Shown here one piece after another: positions 15,756 to 59,275 of a stretch of 64,000 bases of DNA; position 1 is the first letter of the stretch; every line of letters begins with the position of its first letter. The stretch comes from Promethearchaeota archaeon (GTDB lineage Archaea > Asgardarchaeota > Lokiarchaeia > Sigynarchaeales > SOKP01). The notes beneath the pieces are model-generated. The model did not search any database and was not told the DNA's origin. It worked only from the letters and a program-made list of their open reading frames with translations. The stretch is from positions 1 through 64,000 of the forward strand of contig JAHLWT010000274.1 in the NCBI GenBank assembly GCA_019057775.1. The letters run 5' to 3'. The position numbers and the translations under genes are program-made.

Positions 15756-17891
15756 TTAATAAAAAAGATTTTCTCGCTTTCGAGCTTCCCATTCCGCTCT
15801 TTTCCCTGGATTATATCTATTTACTTCACTATAGTATCCAGTTACTCTTGAATATACTTTTACATCCTGAGAAAAACATTGAGGGCATGTGAATTGACTC
15901 CCCCTGAACATTTTTATACATTGTGGACAGTAGATAAAATCAGAAGTGTATGCGAAATACGCTGTATTTGTATTTAGGCAGATATTCTTTGTTAACTCCC
16001 ATAACCCCTGGATATCAGGTTTTTGTTCACCAAGCCAGATATGAGTAATAACACCACCATTCACGATTGGATGGAAATCTCCTTGTTTCTTAATCCTCTC
16101 TGATAATGGAATATTTGCATCATATCTAAGATGGTCTGAATTTGTGTAGTAAGCAGATTTACCATTTGATTGAACAATAGCCTTCTTGGGAAAATGTTTT
16201 AAATCTAATTTAGCAAGACGATTTGCGGTTGATTCTGAAGGTTGTTCCCACAGAGAGTAATATTTATTATCTCTTTTTGTCATAGTATTACACTTGACAA
16301 CTAGATAATTCAGTATGCGTTTACCAAAATTATAAGCAGTATTATCTTCGTGCAATTCATATCCAGTTATACTTTTTACAGCTTCATTTAATCCGGTAAA
16401 TCCTATAGAGAGATTCTGATTTCTTAAATTAAAAATAGCTTTACCATTTATTTTACCACTACATAGAGGTAAATGCCCCGTTTTTAATCTTTTCTCTATT
16501 AAAGACCACTTCTTACGCAATATTCTTGCAGAAAGCTCTATTTTCTCATCTAATACTTTAAAATAATCTCCTTCATTATTAGAGATATATGCATACCGAG
16601 GAAGATTCAAACTAACACTTTGTAGTGAACCAATAGTAACATAATTCTCCCAAATATTGGCGACTTTCCTTTTTTCAGGATCTAAAATACATTGTTCAAT
16701 TATTTGATTTCCACTTAAAAATTTTCTACAGCATTGACTATGAATCTCATCTGGCATCCACTCTGGGCACATATTGAGAAAATAAGGTGTTCCCATAGTG
16801 GCAACTTCTTCCATTACTTTAAGATAAGATGGTTCAAATTCTCGTAACCATTCTTCTTTAATTTTAATTTCATGTTTTGGGAATGCAAATAATTTCCCGT
16901 TGTGATCTCCCTGAATATAAACGTCAGTAAGAGCATCAAAAAGTTTAAGACATTCATTTTTATAATCTCCATAAGTTCCAATGAATTTTCCATGAGGTCC
17001 AATAGCAGGAATATTTAATAACCCCTCTGGAACTGTCGGAGTACATGATATTGAAGTAAATGGTACTTGTCCTCCTCTCGCTGCAAAAATTTGATTAGTT
17101 TCAAAAATTAAACACTGCATAGACTGTTCAATCTCTTTATCAGAAATACCCCGCGCATAAGGAGCTAAAAAAGTATTTATATAATCATAACCTTGACCTC
17201 CACTAAACTCGCCTTGAATAATCCCAAGCCATTTAGCTAGGTGAGTAACAGCTACACGTAGACTTCCTGCAGGTCCTGATTTACTACAATGTGCCCAACT
17301 CTCAACAGGTGGTAAACCATGTTCAAGAATCATTCTAGGATCCCATTCCTGACAAAAGGGTCTTAAATCGAAGTATCTAAGCATATGTATGTGAATATCA
17401 CCATATAGATGAGCTTGTGCTTCTTCAGAATCAAGAATTCTTAAAAGCGCATATTCATCTGATATTCTATTCGCAGCCCAATGATGAATACTCTCAGGAT
17501 TCATATCTTGATTCGAATTTTCATTTACTCCATATTCCAGAATAGCCTCATAATCCATTAATGGCATTCCTATTCTGGTATAAATTTTACGTTCTTCTTC
17601 ATAGTGTTGTTCCGATAAAATTGAACATACTATTTCCCTAATATGTGGACCTGATAGAAATTTAATACCAGAAGAAATTATTCTCCTAACAACTAATTCT
17701 GTTATAATATCAGCAGATTTTTGATCTAAACCAGTCTCTATTATAAGGCTTTGTTCAACTTTAGTAGGATCAAAGGATACAACATCACCTTCAGTCCTGA
17801 AAACGCGAGGCAATAATTTTGTAACATAATCACGTTTAAGAGGTTTAACTTCTTTATTTTTTAACGTTTCTAATTCTGGGACCAAAACCAA
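15756..17891 (-). CDS. nrdD: Anaerobic ribonucleoside-triphosphate reductase (class III) with ATP-cone
   Basis: 711 residues; makes dNTPs under anoxia using a glycyl radical. Residues 15-110 are an ATP-cone allosteric domain (VVSFDPTKVEQSL). The catalytic barrel follows, with HWDPRMILEHG-type and AVTHLAKWLG blocks. The C terminus has two CPQC zinc pairs and the glycyl-radical motif RVTGYY. The radical-activating NrdG is not adjacent; the radical SAM genes at 53.9 and 57 kb do not look like it. Confidence 0.94.
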   Translation of the reverse strand: MVLVPELETLKNKEVKPLKRDYVTKLLPRVFRTEGDVVSFDPTKVEQSLIIETGLDQKSADIITELVVRRIISSGIKFLSGPHIREIVCSILSEQHYEEERKIYTRIGMPLMDYEAILEYGVNENSNQDMNPESIHHWAANRISDEYALLRILDSEEAQAHLYGDIHIHMLRYFDLRPFCQEWDPRMILEHGLPPVESWAHCSKSGPAGSLRVAVTHLAKWLGIIQGEFSGGQGYDYINTFLAPYARGISDKEIEQSMQCLIFETNQIFAARGGQVPFTSISCTPTVPEGLLNIPAIGPHGKFIGTYGDYKNECLKLFDALTDVYIQGDHNGKLFAFPKHEIKIKEEWLREFEPSYLKVMEEVATMGTPYFLNMCPEWMPDEIHSQCCRKFLSGNQIIEQCILDPEKRKVANIWENYVTIGSLQSVSLNLPRYAYISNNEGDYFKVLDEKIELSARILRKKWSLIEKRLKTGHLPLCSGKINGKAIFNLRNQNLSIGFTGLNEAVKSITGYELHEDNTAYNFGKRILNYLVVKCNTMTKRDNKYYSLWEQPSESTANRLAKLDLKHFPKKAIVQSNGKSAYYTNSDHLRYDANIPLSERIKKQGDFHPIVNGGVITHIWLGEQKPDIQGLWELTKNICLNTNTAYFAYTSDFIYCPQCIKMFRGSQFTCPQCFSQDVKVYSRVTGYYSEVNRYNPGKRAEWEARKRENLFY

Positions 17892-24398: not shown

Positions 24399-24977
24399 TC
24401 ATTGAATTATCGAAGGATTTATATTCTGGTTTATTGCTATCTTATTCTTTAAGAACCCAATAATTGCTTGGTTATCTTGTGCCTCTAATGGACTAGCACA
24501 ATCAGGGCATCTAAAGTTCCGCTCGAAAGCTTCATCAAAATTATATTTAATGCTAGACTTTTGACATGTTTTACATATAAAAAAATAATTGTTTTCTTCA
24601 AATTGTAACCTATCTCTTAATTTGCTTTCAATTAATTTCTTTTTTTCAATGAATATTTCTTCAAATAAGTCGAACGCATGCCACCAGTAATAGATAAACC
24701 ATCCAGTAGATTTATCACGAATGCGCCTAAACTGAGCTAGTTTTTCAGAATATAATTTATAAAGAGTCTTCCTTACAGTATTTAATTTTAAAATTTCCTT
24801 ATCATCAGGTTCGAAATCGATGTCCGTGTCCTTAACGTACTCTCTTATTTTTTCAGTTATATCTTCATCAGTGATATCCATAGATTTTGAGTTTAAAAGT
24901 TCCATTCCGACATAAATTGCTACATCCCCCCCAATAATATATAGAAAAGACTTTAAAAAGGGATTTAATTCTTTAAT
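24399..24977 (-). CDS. tfe: Transcription factor E, alpha subunit; apparent AUU start
   Basis: TFE stabilises the open complex with TBP, TFB and RNA polymerase. The winged helix (LKLNTVRKTLYKLYSEKLAQFRRIRD) and WFIYYWW are diagnostic; a zinc ribbon follows (CKTC ... CPDC). The first ATG (24905) begins in the middle of a conserved segment: the frame upstream reads FLKSFLYIIGGDVAIYVG, which fits the family, and no ATG, GTG or TTG occurs before the TAA at 24978-24980. Directly after that stop is ATT (24975-24977), preceded by GAGGTT with 7 bases between. I therefore place the start at the ATT. A fallback is 24905. Confidence 0.85.
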   Translation of the reverse strand: MKELNPFLKSFLYIIGGDVAIYVGMELLNSKSMDITDEDITEKIREYVKDTDIDFEPDDKEILKLNTVRKTLYKLYSEKLAQFRRIRDKSTGWFIYYWWHAFDLFEEIFIEKKKLIESKLRDRLQFEENNYFFICKTCQKSSIKYNFDEAFERNFRCPDCASPLEAQDNQAIIGFLKNKIAINQNINPSIIQ

Positions 24978-24985
24978 TTAAATTA

Positions 24986-24990
24986 ACCTC
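24986..24990 (-). promoter_or_regulatory. Ribosome-binding site of tfe, placing the start at AUU
   Basis: GAGGT on the minus strand, followed by TAATTTAA and then ATT AAA GAA in the TFE frame. Spacing suits initiation at the ATT and is too long for the ATG at 24905. Confidence 0.5.
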
Positions 24991-30360: not shown

Positions 30361-30618
30361 TTACACTTTTTCCTTTTTAACATAACGATAATAATTTACC
30401 TTTTTAACAGTTGTATTGGAATCCCTGATAATTTTGATGATATCCCCTTCTTTTGCTCCAATAGCGATTGCGACCGGATCTTTTTCAAATACCTGAGGTA
30501 AATCATTAACTTCTATATTATATTTATCTAAAAGTTGTTGTGATTCATCTTTAGTCAATAGAACATGTTTAGGTACGAATTTATGGAGTAAAACATCGAT
30601 TTGTTTCTTCTTTGTCAA
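30361..30618 (-). CDS. rpoH: DNA-directed RNA polymerase subunit H
   Basis: 85 residues matching the C-terminal domain of eukaryotic Rpb5. LHKFVPKHVLLTKDESQQLLDKYNI and the DPVAIAIGAKEGDIIKI core are diagnostic. Immediately upstream of rpoB in a leftward operon. Confidence 0.96.
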   Translation of the reverse strand: MTKKKQIDVLLHKFVPKHVLLTKDESQQLLDKYNIEVNDLPQVFEKDPVAIAIGAKEGDIIKIIRDSNTTVKKVNYYRYVKKEKV

Positions 30619-41047: not shown

Positions 41048-41767
41048 TTGGAGAAAAATAAAGTAGTTATTATGAATTTCACAATTCCTCGCAATAATAT
41101 CTTGGATATGTTATGTTATATTTGGAAAATATTAGACCTTCCCTATATTTCATATAATGATTTGCTTTATAAAATTTCATTTCAATTATATATTTTCTCA
41201 CCAGAGAAAGCAGTAGATTTTGTCAAAAGTTGTATAGAAAATAATTTCCTTGTAGAAACTGATTATCACGTCCTAAAATTGTCAAATAACTATAAAAAAA
41301 AACTTGATGAGTGGCATTTTCAAAGAAGAAGTGAAATTATTGAAAAAATCAATTTCATTGATAAGATTTCAAACCGACATTATAAAAATGAAAATAATGA
41401 TTCATATGACTACAAACTCTTATTAAAAGTATTCACTGATAAAGGGACTATTAATAGAGCAGTAACAGTTCCTAATTCTAATATTAAATTAATAGAATTT
41501 AGTACTGATAAAGGAATAATTAAATCAGAAGTTAAGGGATCAGAAGGAAAACTGTACATAATTGAAATTGATATAAACAAGAAGTTCCTCCTGCACAATT
41601 GTCACGATTTTGAATCAAGAAGAGCACATCAAAAAAAATTCTGTAAACACATCCTAAAATTATTCCTCCTTTTAATAAATAAAAAAATTCCTTCTGCTGA
41701 ATTTTTTCTAAATGATTTAGCGGAGAATATAGATAAATGGAATTTTAGTTCTAAACCAATTTCTTAA
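41048..41767 (+). CDS. Hypothetical protein with a SWIM-like cysteine/histidine motif
   Basis: 239 residues, 15 bases after the DP1 gene, so probably cotranscribed. The C-terminal third (LYIIEIDINKKFLLHNCHDF ... FCKHILKLFLLL) has the C-x-D/C ... C-x-H pattern of SWIM zinc fingers, with the second Cys replaced. The N-terminal half is helical and may be a winged helix. Start may be TTG 41048 or ATG 41072. Its 3' end overlaps that of cdc6 by 17 bases. Confidence 0.65.
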   Translation: MEKNKVVIMNFTIPRNNILDMLCYIWKILDLPYISYNDLLYKISFQLYIFSPEKAVDFVKSCIENNFLVETDYHVLKLSNNYKKKLDEWHFQRRSEIIEKINFIDKISNRHYKNENNDSYDYKLLLKVFTDKGTINRAVTVPNSNIKLIEFSTDKGIIKSEVKGSEGKLYIIEIDINKKFLLHNCHDFESRRAHQKKFCKHILKLFLLLINKKIPSAEFFLNDLAENIDKWNFSSKPIS

Positions 41768-43058
41768 AAATATTATTTTTTAATTTAACCTTATCCTCCT
41801 GAAGTAGGAAAGGTTTGTAATGTAAAATACTGTTGATTTTTTCTATCTTTGATAACCCTCTCTCTATAAGTTCCATTCCAATATCTAATTTAATTATCTT
41901 TGTTCTTCCGTAATGTCCCATTGATTTAATATACGCCGATATTATGCCTGCTTGTGCTAAAACATTAATATAATCGCTAATTCTCCTTTTAGTCAACTCT
42001 CTTACTCCCGGGATTAATCCTCTAATCTCAGAATGGACATCATAAATATCCCCAGAGATTATTACATGATCGGGACTAAATTTTGAAAGCAAAAATATCG
42101 AAGCTAAAACTAATTGTGCATGAAGTGGCATCCCTTGTATATATTCCATAACATGATCATTTTCTAAATGTAATTGAGCTTTTTCAACGTGTTTTAAAGT
42201 AATATATTTATTCTGGGCTCTTTCTGCTAATTCACCCGCCTTTCTTAGAAGTTGAAGGGCTTTTCGAGCATCTCCATGCTCTTTAGCTGCGAAAGCAGCA
42301 CATAGTGGAATGACATCTTCTTTTAAAACACCATCTTGAAATGCTATAATAGCTCTTTCACTTAAAATATCTCTTAGTTCCCTAGCATTATAAGAAGGAA
42401 ATACAATATGTTCTTCTCCCAAGCTTGATAATATTCGTGGATCTAAATTCTCTCTAAATTTTAATCTATTTGATATACCAATTAGACTTGTTTTACAAAT
42501 ATCTAAATTTTCATTTAATCTCGTTAAGTCATAAAGGATTTCATTACCTCCTTTCTTCTCTACGATTATATCGATTTCATCCATAACTAAAAAGCATATT
42601 GAATTTCCTACTCTAGAATCTAATAATCCAAGTAACTTCTTGAATATTATATCTTTAGGAAGACCTGTTGGTGGAATCTTCTCTCTTCTCGAAATTGTAT
42701 TATAAATATGAGCTAAAATACGATATGGTGTTGATACGACATTGCAATTAATATAAATCCACCAGAGTTTAATTTCTGAGCTTTGTTGTGCTAACTTCTG
42801 ACTTACATATCTAATGGTTGCTGTTTTACCTGTTCCTGTCATCCCATAACATAAAAAACTAGGGGGTGAATCTCCCAGTAATGCACATGCGGTTTTTTCA
42901 GCAATATCTTTTATTTGTGTATCTCGATGTGGTAGTTCTTCAGGAATGAATAGTGTCTCTAGTGCATCTCGGTAATTAAAAATTCTTGGTCCCTTGAGAT
43001 AATTCTTATAAAACATATCAATATTAAATTGGTAATTATCTTCATTACTTTTCAACAA
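41751..43058 (-). CDS. cdc6: Origin recognition/Cdc6-type replication initiator
   Basis: 435 residues of the archaeal Orc1/Cdc6 family. Walker A is GMTGTGKTAT, Walker B LVMDEID, sensor 1 IGISNRLKF, and sensor 2 with GDARKALQLLRKAGELAE. A C-terminal winged helix (GVRELTKRRISDYINVLAQAGII) binds origin DNA. Located beside both PolD genes. Confidence 0.95.
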   Translation of the reverse strand: MLKSNEDNYQFNIDMFYKNYLKGPRIFNYRDALETLFIPEELPHRDTQIKDIAEKTACALLGDSPPSFLCYGMTGTGKTATIRYVSQKLAQQSSEIKLWWIYINCNVVSTPYRILAHIYNTISRREKIPPTGLPKDIIFKKLLGLLDSRVGNSICFLVMDEIDIIVEKKGGNEILYDLTRLNENLDICKTSLIGISNRLKFRENLDPRILSSLGEEHIVFPSYNARELRDILSERAIIAFQDGVLKEDVIPLCAAFAAKEHGDARKALQLLRKAGELAERAQNKYITLKHVEKAQLHLENDHVMEYIQGMPLHAQLVLASIFLLSKFSPDHVIISGDIYDVHSEIRGLIPGVRELTKRRISDYINVLAQAGIISAYIKSMGHYGRTKIIKLDIGMELIERGLSKIEKINSILHYKPFLLQEDKVKLKNNIFKKLV

Positions 43059-49222: not shown

Positions 49223-51802
49223 TTAATTTATAAGATCATAGAGTGAATTTAATTTGACAGAATCTATAATTTTATTATAAGAAAGATTCTGATCTAAGAT
49301 CTTGATAACATTTAATGTAATCAAACGAGTTTCTCCAGGCTCCAGAGAGATAAAGTTGTCAGATGCTATGAAATCTATAGCATCTGATTCAATAAACACA
49401 TATAATGCCATATTTTTTGTACTTATATTTAATTCAATACTGATCTGGTTATTATTTCCCTTATAAATTTCTTTTGAATTAATAGATAATTCTGGATCTG
49501 CTAAAAAAAAGTATTTTGGCGCTTCAAACAGATGAAATCCGTGAAAAATTATTTTCTCTTGTTTATTCTTATCTTTTAACTTGAATAATGTGATATTATT
49601 TTGTTTTTGAGTTTTATTCTTATTGATAAGATTAGTGTCACTAGAATCAACCTTAAAGGAAATACATGAGCTTATTTTGAAATTTTTCTCTCCATTCATG
49701 AGCATTGTACCTTCAGAGTTAAGAATCTTCCATTCAAGCTTCAATTCTTGTGGCTCTTTTAAATCGTTTGTAACCCAAAATTCGATTTTATCATCTTCTT
49801 CTCTTATACTGACGAAGAGAGGTTGGTAAAATCGTTTAGCAAAATAATGAAGGGCTTTCCATCGCCCAAAATAATCAACAGAGGACCAACTCGCTACTGG
49901 CCAACAGTCATTTAATTGCCAGTAAAGTGTTCCCATACAATGATTCTCATTTCGATTTTGGCGCCAATGGGCTACACCATATTCAATGGCTTCAGCTTGT
50001 GTAATTTGGGATAAAATAACTTGATGTTCGAATTTTTGAGGTATTGAAAATCTCTTTTCCATATAATCCATGATCTTTTTATTCCCCGCTGAATTTTTCT
50101 GATGATTTTCCATAATAGGCGAATAAAAATCAAATTGATTCCGGGTACAAAACTCACTGAGTGTTTTACTTGAGGGAAAAGATTCAAAACCAAATTCAGA
50201 CATGAACCGAGAGTTAAATTCTCGATAAGCAGTGAAAGGTTTACCTCCGTGCCACACCGACCAAAAATGAGAATCTCCAAAATCTGGTGAATTTGAGTCG
50301 GTTTTTCCTAATTTCTTTCCAACGAAACCGTTGGATGGTGAGCTTGGCCAATAAGGGTGAACTAGGTCATATTTTTTAATCAAATGAGGAATAATTTGTT
50401 CAAAAATCTCGTTGTATCTACTCTCAAATTTAGATTTAATATCTTTATTCTTAAATCTGGGATTTTTATCTAATAAATAATTCCATAGCCATTCAATCTC
50501 ATTATTCCCACACCATAAAGCTAAACTTGGATGAGATCTCAATCTTTTTATATTTTGGATTACTTCCTCCTTAATATTTTCAATAAATTCATCGTAAAAA
50601 TGATACAATGCACAAGCGAATGGAAAATCTTGCCATACTAGCAATCCTAATTCATCACATAGATCATAAAAGAGATCATCCTCATATATTCCTCCACCCC
50701 AAACCCGTATCATGTTCATGTTTGCCATTTTAGCATAATTTAAATTCATCGAATATAACCCTAATCTTTTACCTCTTGGTATAAAGCTATCAATTGGAAT
50801 CCAATTTGCTCCCTTAGCAAAAATAGGGATTCCATTTAATTGAAAGAAAAAACTTTCTCCCCACTTATCGAATTCTCTTACTAAATGTATATCTCTTAAA
50901 CCAATCTTTTGGACTACTGAATCTATGATATCATCTTTTAAGATTGAGGTCTCAACCAGATAGAGATTGGGAACTCCAAGGTCATGCGTCCACCATAAAA
51001 GAGGATTTTCAACATCAATTTCTAATATCTCATTTTTGTTATTTAAAAGAACCTCCTTTAAAATGTAATCATTATCAGGTGTGGTTACCTTCACTGCGAG
51101 TTTATAAAATAATTTTGAAAGATCCTGTATCTCTGAGGTTAGTTCAACTTTTATAAATAATTTGACTGAAAAAAACTCTTTACTATAATTGAATACTGAA
51201 TACGGATAAACGGATGTAATTTTTATATCATCATATCCAACTATCTCAACAGATTTCCAAATTCCACTATCGGGTAATTTTGGTCCCCAATCCCAGCCAA
51301 AACTGTATTGAGCTTTCCTTAGATATGGAACTCCTGGAATAGCAGCATAACCTGTGTTTAAGTTAATGTCTCGTTTTTCCGCTTCTTCTTGTGCTTTCTT
51401 GGTCGGACTCTTGAATTTAATTATCAATTTATTGCCTGTATTCTGAAGCTTTGATTTAATATCAAACTCGTACCTGATAAACATATTTTCTGTAAGGCCA
51501 AGAATTTCGTCATTTAAATATATTTTAGTATGGGTATCCAATCCATAAAATTGTAAAATTATATTTTTATGATTTAAAAAACCATCTTCAATATCAAATT
51601 CTTTTTCATATACCCAATCTGAATCGTAAATCCAATTCATTTCATGTTCATTAACACCATAAAAAGGATCTTCAATAACTTCATTCTCCAACAAAGATTC
51701 AAAAATAGTACCAGGAACTATAGCAGGAATTTCAATTGGCTTTTCAGAATTATTTAATCTCCAAATTCCATCTAAAGAAATAGTCTCAACCTTTACAGTA
51801 AT
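49223..51802 (-). CDS. GH2 glycosidase, beta-mannosidase type; apparent AUU start
   Basis: Retaining exo-glycosidase. Seen are WDWGPKLPDSG, RVWGGGIYEDDLFYDLCDELGLLVWQDFPFACA in parts, the acid/base WCGNNE and nucleophile region FMSEFGFESFPS. No signal peptide. The first conventional start (TTG 51694) cuts into the fold: the upstream frame reads ISLDGIWRLNNSEKP ... PAIVPGTIFESLL, the expected N terminus. No ATG, GTG or TTG precedes this back to a stop. ATT at 51800-51802 lies 7 bases after GAGGT and gives 859 residues, a normal family length. Confidence 0.85.
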   Translation of the reverse strand: MTVKVETISLDGIWRLNNSEKPIEIPAIVPGTIFESLLENEVIEDPFYGVNEHEMNWIYDSDWVYEKEFDIEDGFLNHKNIILQFYGLDTHTKIYLNDEILGLTENMFIRYEFDIKSKLQNTGNKLIIKFKSPTKKAQEEAEKRDINLNTGYAAIPGVPYLRKAQYSFGWDWGPKLPDSGIWKSVEIVGYDDIKITSVYPYSVFNYSKEFFSVKLFIKVELTSEIQDLSKLFYKLAVKVTTPDNDYILKEVLLNNKNEILEIDVENPLLWWTHDLGVPNLYLVETSILKDDIIDSVVQKIGLRDIHLVREFDKWGESFFFQLNGIPIFAKGANWIPIDSFIPRGKRLGLYSMNLNYAKMANMNMIRVWGGGIYEDDLFYDLCDELGLLVWQDFPFACALYHFYDEFIENIKEEVIQNIKRLRSHPSLALWCGNNEIEWLWNYLLDKNPRFKNKDIKSKFESRYNEIFEQIIPHLIKKYDLVHPYWPSSPSNGFVGKKLGKTDSNSPDFGDSHFWSVWHGGKPFTAYREFNSRFMSEFGFESFPSSKTLSEFCTRNQFDFYSPIMENHQKNSAGNKKIMDYMEKRFSIPQKFEHQVILSQITQAEAIEYGVAHWRQNRNENHCMGTLYWQLNDCWPVASWSSVDYFGRWKALHYFAKRFYQPLFVSIREEDDKIEFWVTNDLKEPQELKLEWKILNSEGTMLMNGEKNFKISSCISFKVDSSDTNLINKNKTQKQNNITLFKLKDKNKQEKIIFHGFHLFEAPKYFFLADPELSINSKEIYKGNNNQISIELNISTKNMALYVFIESDAIDFIASDNFISLEPGETRLITLNVIKILDQNLSYNKIIDSVKLNSLYDLIN

Positions 51803-51809
51803 ATCAATA

Positions 51810-51814
51810 ACCTC
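51810..51814 (-). promoter_or_regulatory. Ribosome-binding site placing the GH2 start at AUU
   Basis: GAGGT on the minus strand, 7 bases before ATT ACT GTA in the GH2 frame. Confidence 0.55.
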
Positions 51815-58716: not shown

Positions 58717-58792
58717 TTAAATTACATCTTCTTCTTCTATGTTTTTTTAAAAAAAACCATCAATGTTCAAACTTAAATTTATTAAACAAAAA

Positions 58793-58837: not shown

Positions 58838-58842
58838 AGGTG
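58838..58842 (+). promoter_or_regulatory. Ribosome-binding site placing the polyproline protein start at AUC
   Basis: AGGTG, 7 bases before ATC GCT GAA GAA at 58850. No ATG, GTG or TTG in frame lies at a suitable distance. Confidence 0.5.
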
Positions 58843-58849
58843 TTCAAAA

Positions 58850-59275
58850 ATCGCTGAAGAATTCGCATCCTTTTTGGATCAGACCCGTAAAGCTCCAATG
58901 GAAGAAAAATTAAACGCCTTTGGAGATATCGTTGAAAAAATAATGCAGATTATCCTTAAGATTCCAGATCTGGTAGATATTAGCTTACAAGATGTCAATT
59001 CGAAGGTTTCTAATTTGCAAAATCAATTAAATGCTATGAATGGTGATATCACGGCACTTAAATCACGACCAGCTGCTGCTGCTGGTGCTCCAGCAGCCCC
59101 ACGTGCGCCTGGAGGGGCACCTGGAAGTCCGCCACCCCCACCACCTGGAGGGGCACCTGGAAGTCCGCCACCCCCCGGAGGTCCCAAACCTGCTCGTCCA
59201 GCACAACCAGTATCTCTGAGAGGTGCAATTATGGGCGAGCTTAAGAGTCTATTCGCAAAGCGCCGTACTAATTAA
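58850..59275 (+). CDS. Polyproline coiled-coil protein, candidate actin/profilin-pathway factor; apparent AUC start
   Basis: 141 residues: an N-terminal helical segment (AEEFASFLDQTRKAPMEEKL ...), a short coiled coil (VNSKVSNLQNQLNAMNGDI), an Ala/Gly/Pro region with PPPPPPGG and PPPPGG runs, and a basic terminal helix (LRGAIMGELKSLFAKRR). The architecture resembles the WASH-complex subunit CCDC53 and VASP/WASP-type proline regions that bind profilin. The frame also opens at ATG 58763, but those 29 residues look like translated AT-rich leader. Homology to any eukaryotic protein is not shown. Confidence 0.65.
   Translation: MAEEFASFLDQTRKAPMEEKLNAFGDIVEKIMQIILKIPDLVDISLQDVNSKVSNLQNQLNAMNGDITALKSRPAAAAGAPAAPRAPGGAPGSPPPPPPGGAPGSPPPPGGPKPARPAQPVSLRGAIMGELKSLFAKRRTN
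59108..59175 (+). repeat. 36-bp period repeat coding for the polyproline runs
   Basis: Two identical 32-bp copies begin at 59108 and 59144. They are far more GC-rich than the surroundings and encode GGAPGSPPPP units. Confidence 0.85.

Follow-up and report, generated by a model that had tools for sequence, protein, structure and literature searches.

A 64,000-nucleotide stretch of DNA from a Promethearchaeota archaeon (contig JAHLWT010000274.1, positions 1 to 64,000, hereafter the window) carries a gene for a proline-rich protein, here called the polyproline protein, which very probably starts at the AUC codon at 58850..58852 of the forward strand. The coding region comprises 141 codons (58850..59275, +) and is preceded by the Shine-Dalgarno (SD) sequence AGGTG at 58838..58842 (+), whose duplex with GAUCACCUCCU is computed at -9.1 kcal/mol, the last bases of the 16S tail being assumed. 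The initial annotation had described AGGTG, seven bases and then ATC GCT GAA GAA in the place where ATG would be expected, and the DNA reads as described: the context is AAAG AAAGGTG TTCAAAA ATC GCT GAA GAA, with a 7-base spacer and a frame open to the stop at 59273-59275. The protein consists of a conserved N-terminal region, a Pro/Gly-rich linker and a conserved LRGAIMGELKSLFAKR close to its end; a Pfam search gave weak matches only and no confident family. Screening 5.8 billion proteins yielded 194 homologs at E <= 0.001, 120 of which were listed and 30 aligned, and among the matches listed the named relatives are mostly Lokiarchaeota/Promethearchaeota, with some labelled Thorarchaeota.

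The DNA of the orthologs was read in the 79 genomes of the surrounding order, 71 of which matched, giving 65 loci including the window, 63 of them readable (L012 has too little upstream sequence and L145 gave no match; G039 is counted twice). The position is ATG in 56 loci, ATA in 6 and ATC in one, the window, so that the AUC does sit where ATG is expected. Accordingly, most of the 30 aligned proteins start MCAEEF or MAEEF, whereas the window protein and its five closest relatives (P0002-P0006) are called from an ATG 29 codons upstream and read CSKIAEEF through the same position. Two of the ATA starts, in G027 and G028, stand behind GGTGAT, with an in-frame TGA three codons upstream in G028. 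Pairing with the anti-SD has a median of -9.6 kcal/mol in the 7 rows with AUU, AUC or AUA (together AUH) vs -3.2 kcal/mol in the 56 ATG rows, the rank test giving p = 2e-5, a value that is too small because the rows are related and represent about three independent changes.

Other starts for this gene have been weighed. A plain listing of open reading frames (ORFs) begins at the in-frame ATG at 58763..58765 (+), which would give the protein of this clade 29 additional N-terminal residues; no stop interrupts the frame after this ATG, and the six close proteins P0001-P0006 share the extension with few amino-acid changes. However, the shared stretch is partly a conserved, promoter-like DNA element, CTTAAATTTATTAAA, located at 58772..58786 (+), which this ATG adjoins on the upstream side. 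With up to two mismatches the element is found in 43 of the 62 orthologs that have enough upstream sequence, against 1.4% in shuffled upstreams, ATG-starting orthologs included, and its end lies 62-82 nt before the AEEF codon (median 72; 66 in the window). An in-frame stop cuts it off from the protein in 39 of the 43 loci, the frame being open in the window, L020, L023 and L033. The element looks like a TATA-type promoter element, in which case the transcript would start downstream of 58763, and the conservation of the extension in P0001-P0006 is apparently, at least in part, conservation of the element itself. ATG 58763 is thus probably not the start, and the extended protein is unlikely. Still less probable is initiation at the next standard codons downstream, the TTG in FASF-L or the ATG in APMEEK: neither has an SD before it, as judged by eye, and the AEEFASF residues A, E, F and F, invariant in the alignment of 30, would be lost. 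A sequencing or assembly error hiding a true ATG can be practically dismissed, even if ATC and ATG differ by one base, because Ile stands at the same place in the five close database proteins P0002-P0006 (protein alignment; P0004 is nearly identical and comes from another source), other genomes have ATA in the ortholog, and the tfe and aIF1 genes described below have AUH in many genomes.

Two further genes of the window had been proposed as companion cases with the same ribosome-binding-site geometry, and this likeness is confirmed, the spacers being 7, 8 and 7 nt for the polyproline, tfe and GH2 genes, respectively. The tfe gene, for transcription factor E alpha (24399..24977, -; TFIIE_alpha match), has an AUU start codon at 24975..24977 (-), with an in-frame TAA directly upstream and the SD sequence GAGGT at 24986..24990 (-), 8 bases before the ATT. 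The gene for a GH2-type glycoside hydrolase (49223..51802, -; identified with Pfam, with matches in relatives) has its AUU at 51800..51802 (-), 7 bases after GAGGT at 51810..51814 (-). That all three genes are missed or truncated by gene calling was true in part: in the plain ORF listing GH2 is truncated, beginning at a TTG at 51694, as is tfe, whose listed start is an ATG at 24905, but the polyproline gene is over-extended. No usable in-frame standard start was found for the window tfe and GH2 genes, and the upstream ATG of the polyproline gene lies before the promoter-like element.

Matches to tfe were found in 70 of the 79 genomes, and its start was read in 60 loci including the window (two each in G041, G069 and G070). 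The site is ATG in 25, ATT in 23, TTG in 5, ATC in 3, ATA in 3 and GTG in 1, hence AUH in 29 of the 60, and in 22 of these 29 no ATG, GTG or TTG lies between the in-frame stop and the site. AUH occurs in the near relatives of the window as well as in the distant G012-G016 group of the order, and SD pairing is stronger at the 29 AUH sites (median -5.9) than at the 25 ATG sites (-3.9). The onset of coding constraint coincides with the AUH codon in motif-picked loci: the entropies of the three codon positions are 1.14/1.32/1.19 before it and.37/.26/.96 after it (20 of 23 loci). As a separate observation, G041:C1 holds a second tfe copy or fragment, with AUU behind GAGGC, at 2711922-2712242 and 3089497-3090060. 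Concerning GH2, the five loci with the closest similarity over the first 80 residues (L066, L070, L067, L065 and L068) have ATA, ATA, ATC, ATG and ATA at the site; by genome, the six sequences read ATT in the window, ATA in G042, G046 and G039, ATC in G032 and ATG in G034. The window GH2 gene is the one clean case, since no ATG, GTG or TTG lies between the upstream stop and the conserved region. Homology of the site with standard-start orthologs is clear for the polyproline and tfe genes and, for GH2, is given by one close ATG relative.

The weightiest support comes from beyond the window: the same type of start is found in the gene of the start-codon fidelity factor aIF1 (SUI1, PF01253), which was matched in 66 of the 79 genomes in the order and, across the phylum, in 199 of 227. 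The loci analyzed were 140, 50 from the order and 90 others taken mostly by score and hence non-random; 131 were usable, 49 of them from the order. The stretch from the in-frame stop to the Cys motif is free of ATG, GTG and TTG in 46 of the 131 Asgard loci, and in 32 of the 49 from the order. The candidate starts in these 46 are ATT (28), ATA (11), CTG (6) and ATC (1), and in 42 no second codon of this sort occurs within 14 codons. The most frequent arrangement is AGGTTGTGA(T/A)AA followed by ATT AAA GAC GAC. Beyond the 32 of the order, nine more loci are probable cases; eight have a standard codon in or beside the SD, and the ninth, L254 (G006), has a TTG three codons after a better-spaced ATA. 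Labelled by start, the 131 loci comprise 42 AUG, 40 AUH, 10 probable AUH, 28 GUG, 6 CUG and 5 UUG. The constraint again sets in at the AUH, with codon-position entropies of.95/.93/.81 before it and.35/.14/.86 after it in the 27 of 50 order loci fitting the motif rule. Outside the order, a CTG behind an SD is the sole candidate start in L360, L367, L368, L370, L376 and L327, an in-frame TGA lies two codons upstream in four of the first five of these, and GTG occupies that place in other genomes sharing the CPNCGLP context. A tree of the 76 longer aIF1 sequences, which has few columns and many open forks, requires at least four changes between standard and non-standard starts.

Of the 120 aIF1 relatives listed from the database, 15 carry a Met at a distance of six residues ahead of the Cys motif. 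The C..C..P motif is absent from 52, a number that includes entries truncated by contig ends. Among the 23 proteins inspected, the NCBI entries P0121-P0125 and P0149 start with MKDDD or MKDDE, and thus at the AUU position. It should be noted that NCBI names aIF1 in P0121-P0127 and others 'stress response translation initiation inhibitor YciH'. A fidelity-factor gene with a conserved non-canonical start of its own, as in infC, is thus found in aIF1. As to changes in the initiation factors, a possibility raised at the outset, loss of aIF1 is rejected by the SUI1 matches in the order, and aIF1 is itself an AUH-start gene in most of the loci read. Two other initiation factors served as controls in the order. 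Of the 26 aIF1A loci that could be parsed (30 given, judged by eye), 25 have their conserved N-terminus at a standard start, the exception, L391, being unclear with only GTG and TTG codons near the N-terminus; for aIF6 this is so in 27 of 28 parsed loci (30 given), the exception being L427 (G015), which has ATT CTG.

The proposal that AUU and AUC are real start codons in this lineage rather than isolated errors is supported by the orthologs across the 79-genome order, in particular those of tfe and aIF1. The codon set, as far as comparison can tell, needs extending: AUA appears to be used as well, and CUG for aIF1 in other Asgards.

The frequency of such starts was estimated from about 1.18 Mb in eleven contigs, the window included, which gave 219 ortholog groups, 102 of them with at least 3 members. 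A rule that looked for the lack of a standard start ahead of the conserved core flagged 61 of the 684 N-terminal regions; many of these are false, with the core placed too early, as for RpoH with a TTG a few codons on, and further families are cited here only after inspection of the DNA. Group 58801 was dropped, its conservation lying in another frame, as was group 55286, which holds the rnhB insert described at the end. Six further groups have AUH in at least one member, some of them ambiguously: ATA vs ATG in 75567 (one of 3 members, with an in-frame TGA three codons upstream), 128431 (one of 8) and 150375 (one of 2), ATT in all 3 members of 71304, ATT and ATA in 2 of 3 members of 70068, and ATT in all 7 of 98393. 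AUH replaces the AUG of relatives in the polyproline and GH2 genes and in three of these six families. In the window at least three of the 50 genes with orthologs have such a start, and as a loose estimate AUH starts may serve a few percent of genes.

Several observations weigh against this picture. Among the ATA loci of the polyproline family, L121-L124 (four of six) are ambiguous, since an in-frame ATG three codons upstream sits within the SD-like run GGGGATGAT or a similar one. Likewise, 7 of the 29 AUH loci of tfe have an in-frame ATG five codons upstream that overlaps the SD, the AUH relatives of GH2 have a GTG or TTG overlapping the SD or, in G046, an ATG directly before the ATA, and 19 of the 25 other GH2 loci have an ATG, GTG or TTG one codon downstream. 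SD pairing is weak, about -3.5 to -3.9, in 5 of the 46 aIF1 loci (L251, L284, L287, L288 and L291), and in six members of group 98393 the SD region contains an in-frame GTG, which may itself be the start. In bulk, the 684 regions show no SD excess upstream of AUH (17/979 vs 132/6170 for other codons), while ATG (33/477) and TTG (22/228) are enriched, and within the 61 flagged regions an SD precedes 16 of 104 AUH codons vs 65 of 610 others (p = 0.11), or 7/104 vs 27/610 at a stricter threshold (p = 0.21), neither difference being significant. These negative bulk tests imply that AUH starts are a minority. Comparison shows where the site lies, that it corresponds to the AUG of orthologs and is conserved, and that in tfe and aIF1 constraint sets in at the AUH codon. 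AUH starts are well supported in this way, and we hold with considerable confidence that the polyproline protein is translated from AUC 58850 as one case of a minor, conserved practice in the order.

Concerning the decoding machinery, the initiator tRNA changes that the initial annotation had considered were not seen. The initiator pattern GGGCTNATAACCC matched in 33 of the 79 genomes, in 25 of them with the normal CAT, and these include G033 and G042, which are near the window; of the 30 loci fetched, 23 have CAT, most with initiator-like flanks. The 7 matches without CAT lack tRNA-like flanks on visual inspection and gave no ARAGORN match, the latter being weak evidence because most true initiators are also missed by that program. 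There is hence no sign of an altered initiator tRNA in the 25 genomes with the CAU anticodon, nor of an altered anti-SD, the canonical 16S end GGATCACCTC being seen in 44 of the 79 relatives, where it matches TGCGGNTGGATCACCTC. ARAGORN found no tRNA gene within the window. A separate observation is that the initiator tRNA genes L200, L203, L204, L209, L211-L214, L216, L218 and L219 are apparently interrupted by an intron downstream of the anticodon arm; ARAGORN gave none of them where run.

With a normal initiator tRNA and a canonical 16S end, the simplest decoding would be a third-position mismatch helped by the SD. Pairing of AGGTG with the 3' end of the 16S rRNA would anchor the 30S subunit, and the initiator tRNA (CAU) would pair with AUC at its first two positions, leaving the third mismatched. 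Some genes of the order would in this way use AUU, AUC and AUA starts, mostly behind a good SD. By analogy, aIF1, which would normally act against AUH codons, may limit its own synthesis through its own AUH start, and the tfe, GH2 and polyproline genes may thereby respond to the aIF1 level. Extended to the phylum, this amounts to a tentative model in which Asgard aIF1 feeds back on itself via its AUU, AUA or CUG start, and the AUH genes (tfe, GH2, polyproline) are translated more when aIF1 falls, which would link initiation stringency to transcription through TFE.

A serious rival, which may well hold although we would not put it at an even chance, is that AUH starts are neutrally tolerated wherever a good SD offsets the weak codon, with no regulation involved and the aIF1 case due to chance. 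The interchange of AUG, AUA, AUC and AUU among the GH2 and polyproline orthologs does resemble drift, and stronger SDs accompany weaker start codons generally, according to the part available of a comparative survey (PMC5622118). On the other side, aIF1 has a non-AUG start (AUH, CUG, GUG or UUG) in 89 of the 131 loci, while standard starts are nearly universal for aIF1A and aIF6 within the order, and AUH in tfe extends to distant members of the order.

IF3 belongs to a protein family different from the SUI1-family aIF1. NCBI code table 11 allows rare AUU, AUC, AUA and CUG starts, and mammalian mitochondria use AUA, AUU and AUC; the codons are the same, but here they recur and are kept in the same genes across one order of archaea. 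In the available parts of one study (PMC5472188), bacterial infC is described as starting with ATT or ATC, IF3 limiting its own synthesis, and Streptomyces sigR as starting with GTC and being repressed by IF3. The likeness of aIF1 to infC, as far as those parts describe it, lies in a fidelity-factor gene that itself has a conserved AUH-type start; the difference is that aIF1 is of the SUI1 family and that autoregulation, tested for infC, is proposed here for aIF1 by analogy. The sigR gene, to judge from the same parts, resembles tfe, GH2 and the polyproline gene as an ordinary gene whose non-canonical start was mis-annotated to a nearby standard codon, and differs in being bacterial, in having GUC instead of AUH and in its regulation being demonstrated, while that of the Asgard genes is a proposal. 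Another paper (PMC6237735) credits the aIF1 of Sulfolobus with favouring discrimination against non-canonical starts, and describes eukaryotic eIF1 as autoregulated through an AUG in poor context. The two factors are homologous members of the SUI1 family, and aIF1 would likewise limit its own synthesis via a weak start, the weakness being AUG context in eukaryotes and a non-AUG codon behind an SD in the Asgards. As a measure of rarity, the accessible part of the survey of close genome groups reports 1 switch from AUG to AUU among 61,358 ancestral AUG starts (PMC5622118).

A literature search covering titles and abstract openings, partly without preprints, returned no report of AUH starts in archaea or Asgards, of a non-AUG start of aIF1 or of aIF1 autoregulation. 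If these proposals are true, archaea close to eukaryotes would have conserved start codons of the AUH type, and aIF1 would use one as bacterial IF3 does. The same feedback would then have been reached by a third route, besides that of IF3 and the poorly placed AUG of eIF1, and its evolution could be tested across the three domains. Such starts would also often be misplaced in databases, an example being the listed aIF1 relatives without C..C..P, with the reservation on contig ends made above.

Finally, some minor features of the window and its relatives deserve mention. Among the genes recognized in the window are those for a Ras-family GTPase, for subunits of RNA polymerase and for DNA polymerase D. 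A score-based automatic choice of starts, which in several genes settled on an internal Met or Ile codon and was used for statements on the window only, indicates that several TTG-start genes of the window (NrdD, RpoH, Cdc6 and another; 55882, 15756-17891, 30361-30618, 41751-43058) keep TTG in all five relatives compared, mostly with SD pairing, and by the same automatic choice many ATG genes of the window have no SD pairing and look leaderless. In rnhB, for RNase HII, a 30-nt insert that contains an in-frame stop separates R from G in the motif IDEAGR/G(P/S)V, in all six contigs in which the DNA motif was found (joined-stretch positions G034 76513+, G043 61135+, G044 92737+, G036 91992+, G032 55260+ and G035 57836-). 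Several of these inserts contain an inverted repeat, and the insert may represent a small intron of the archaeal kind or a bypass element.
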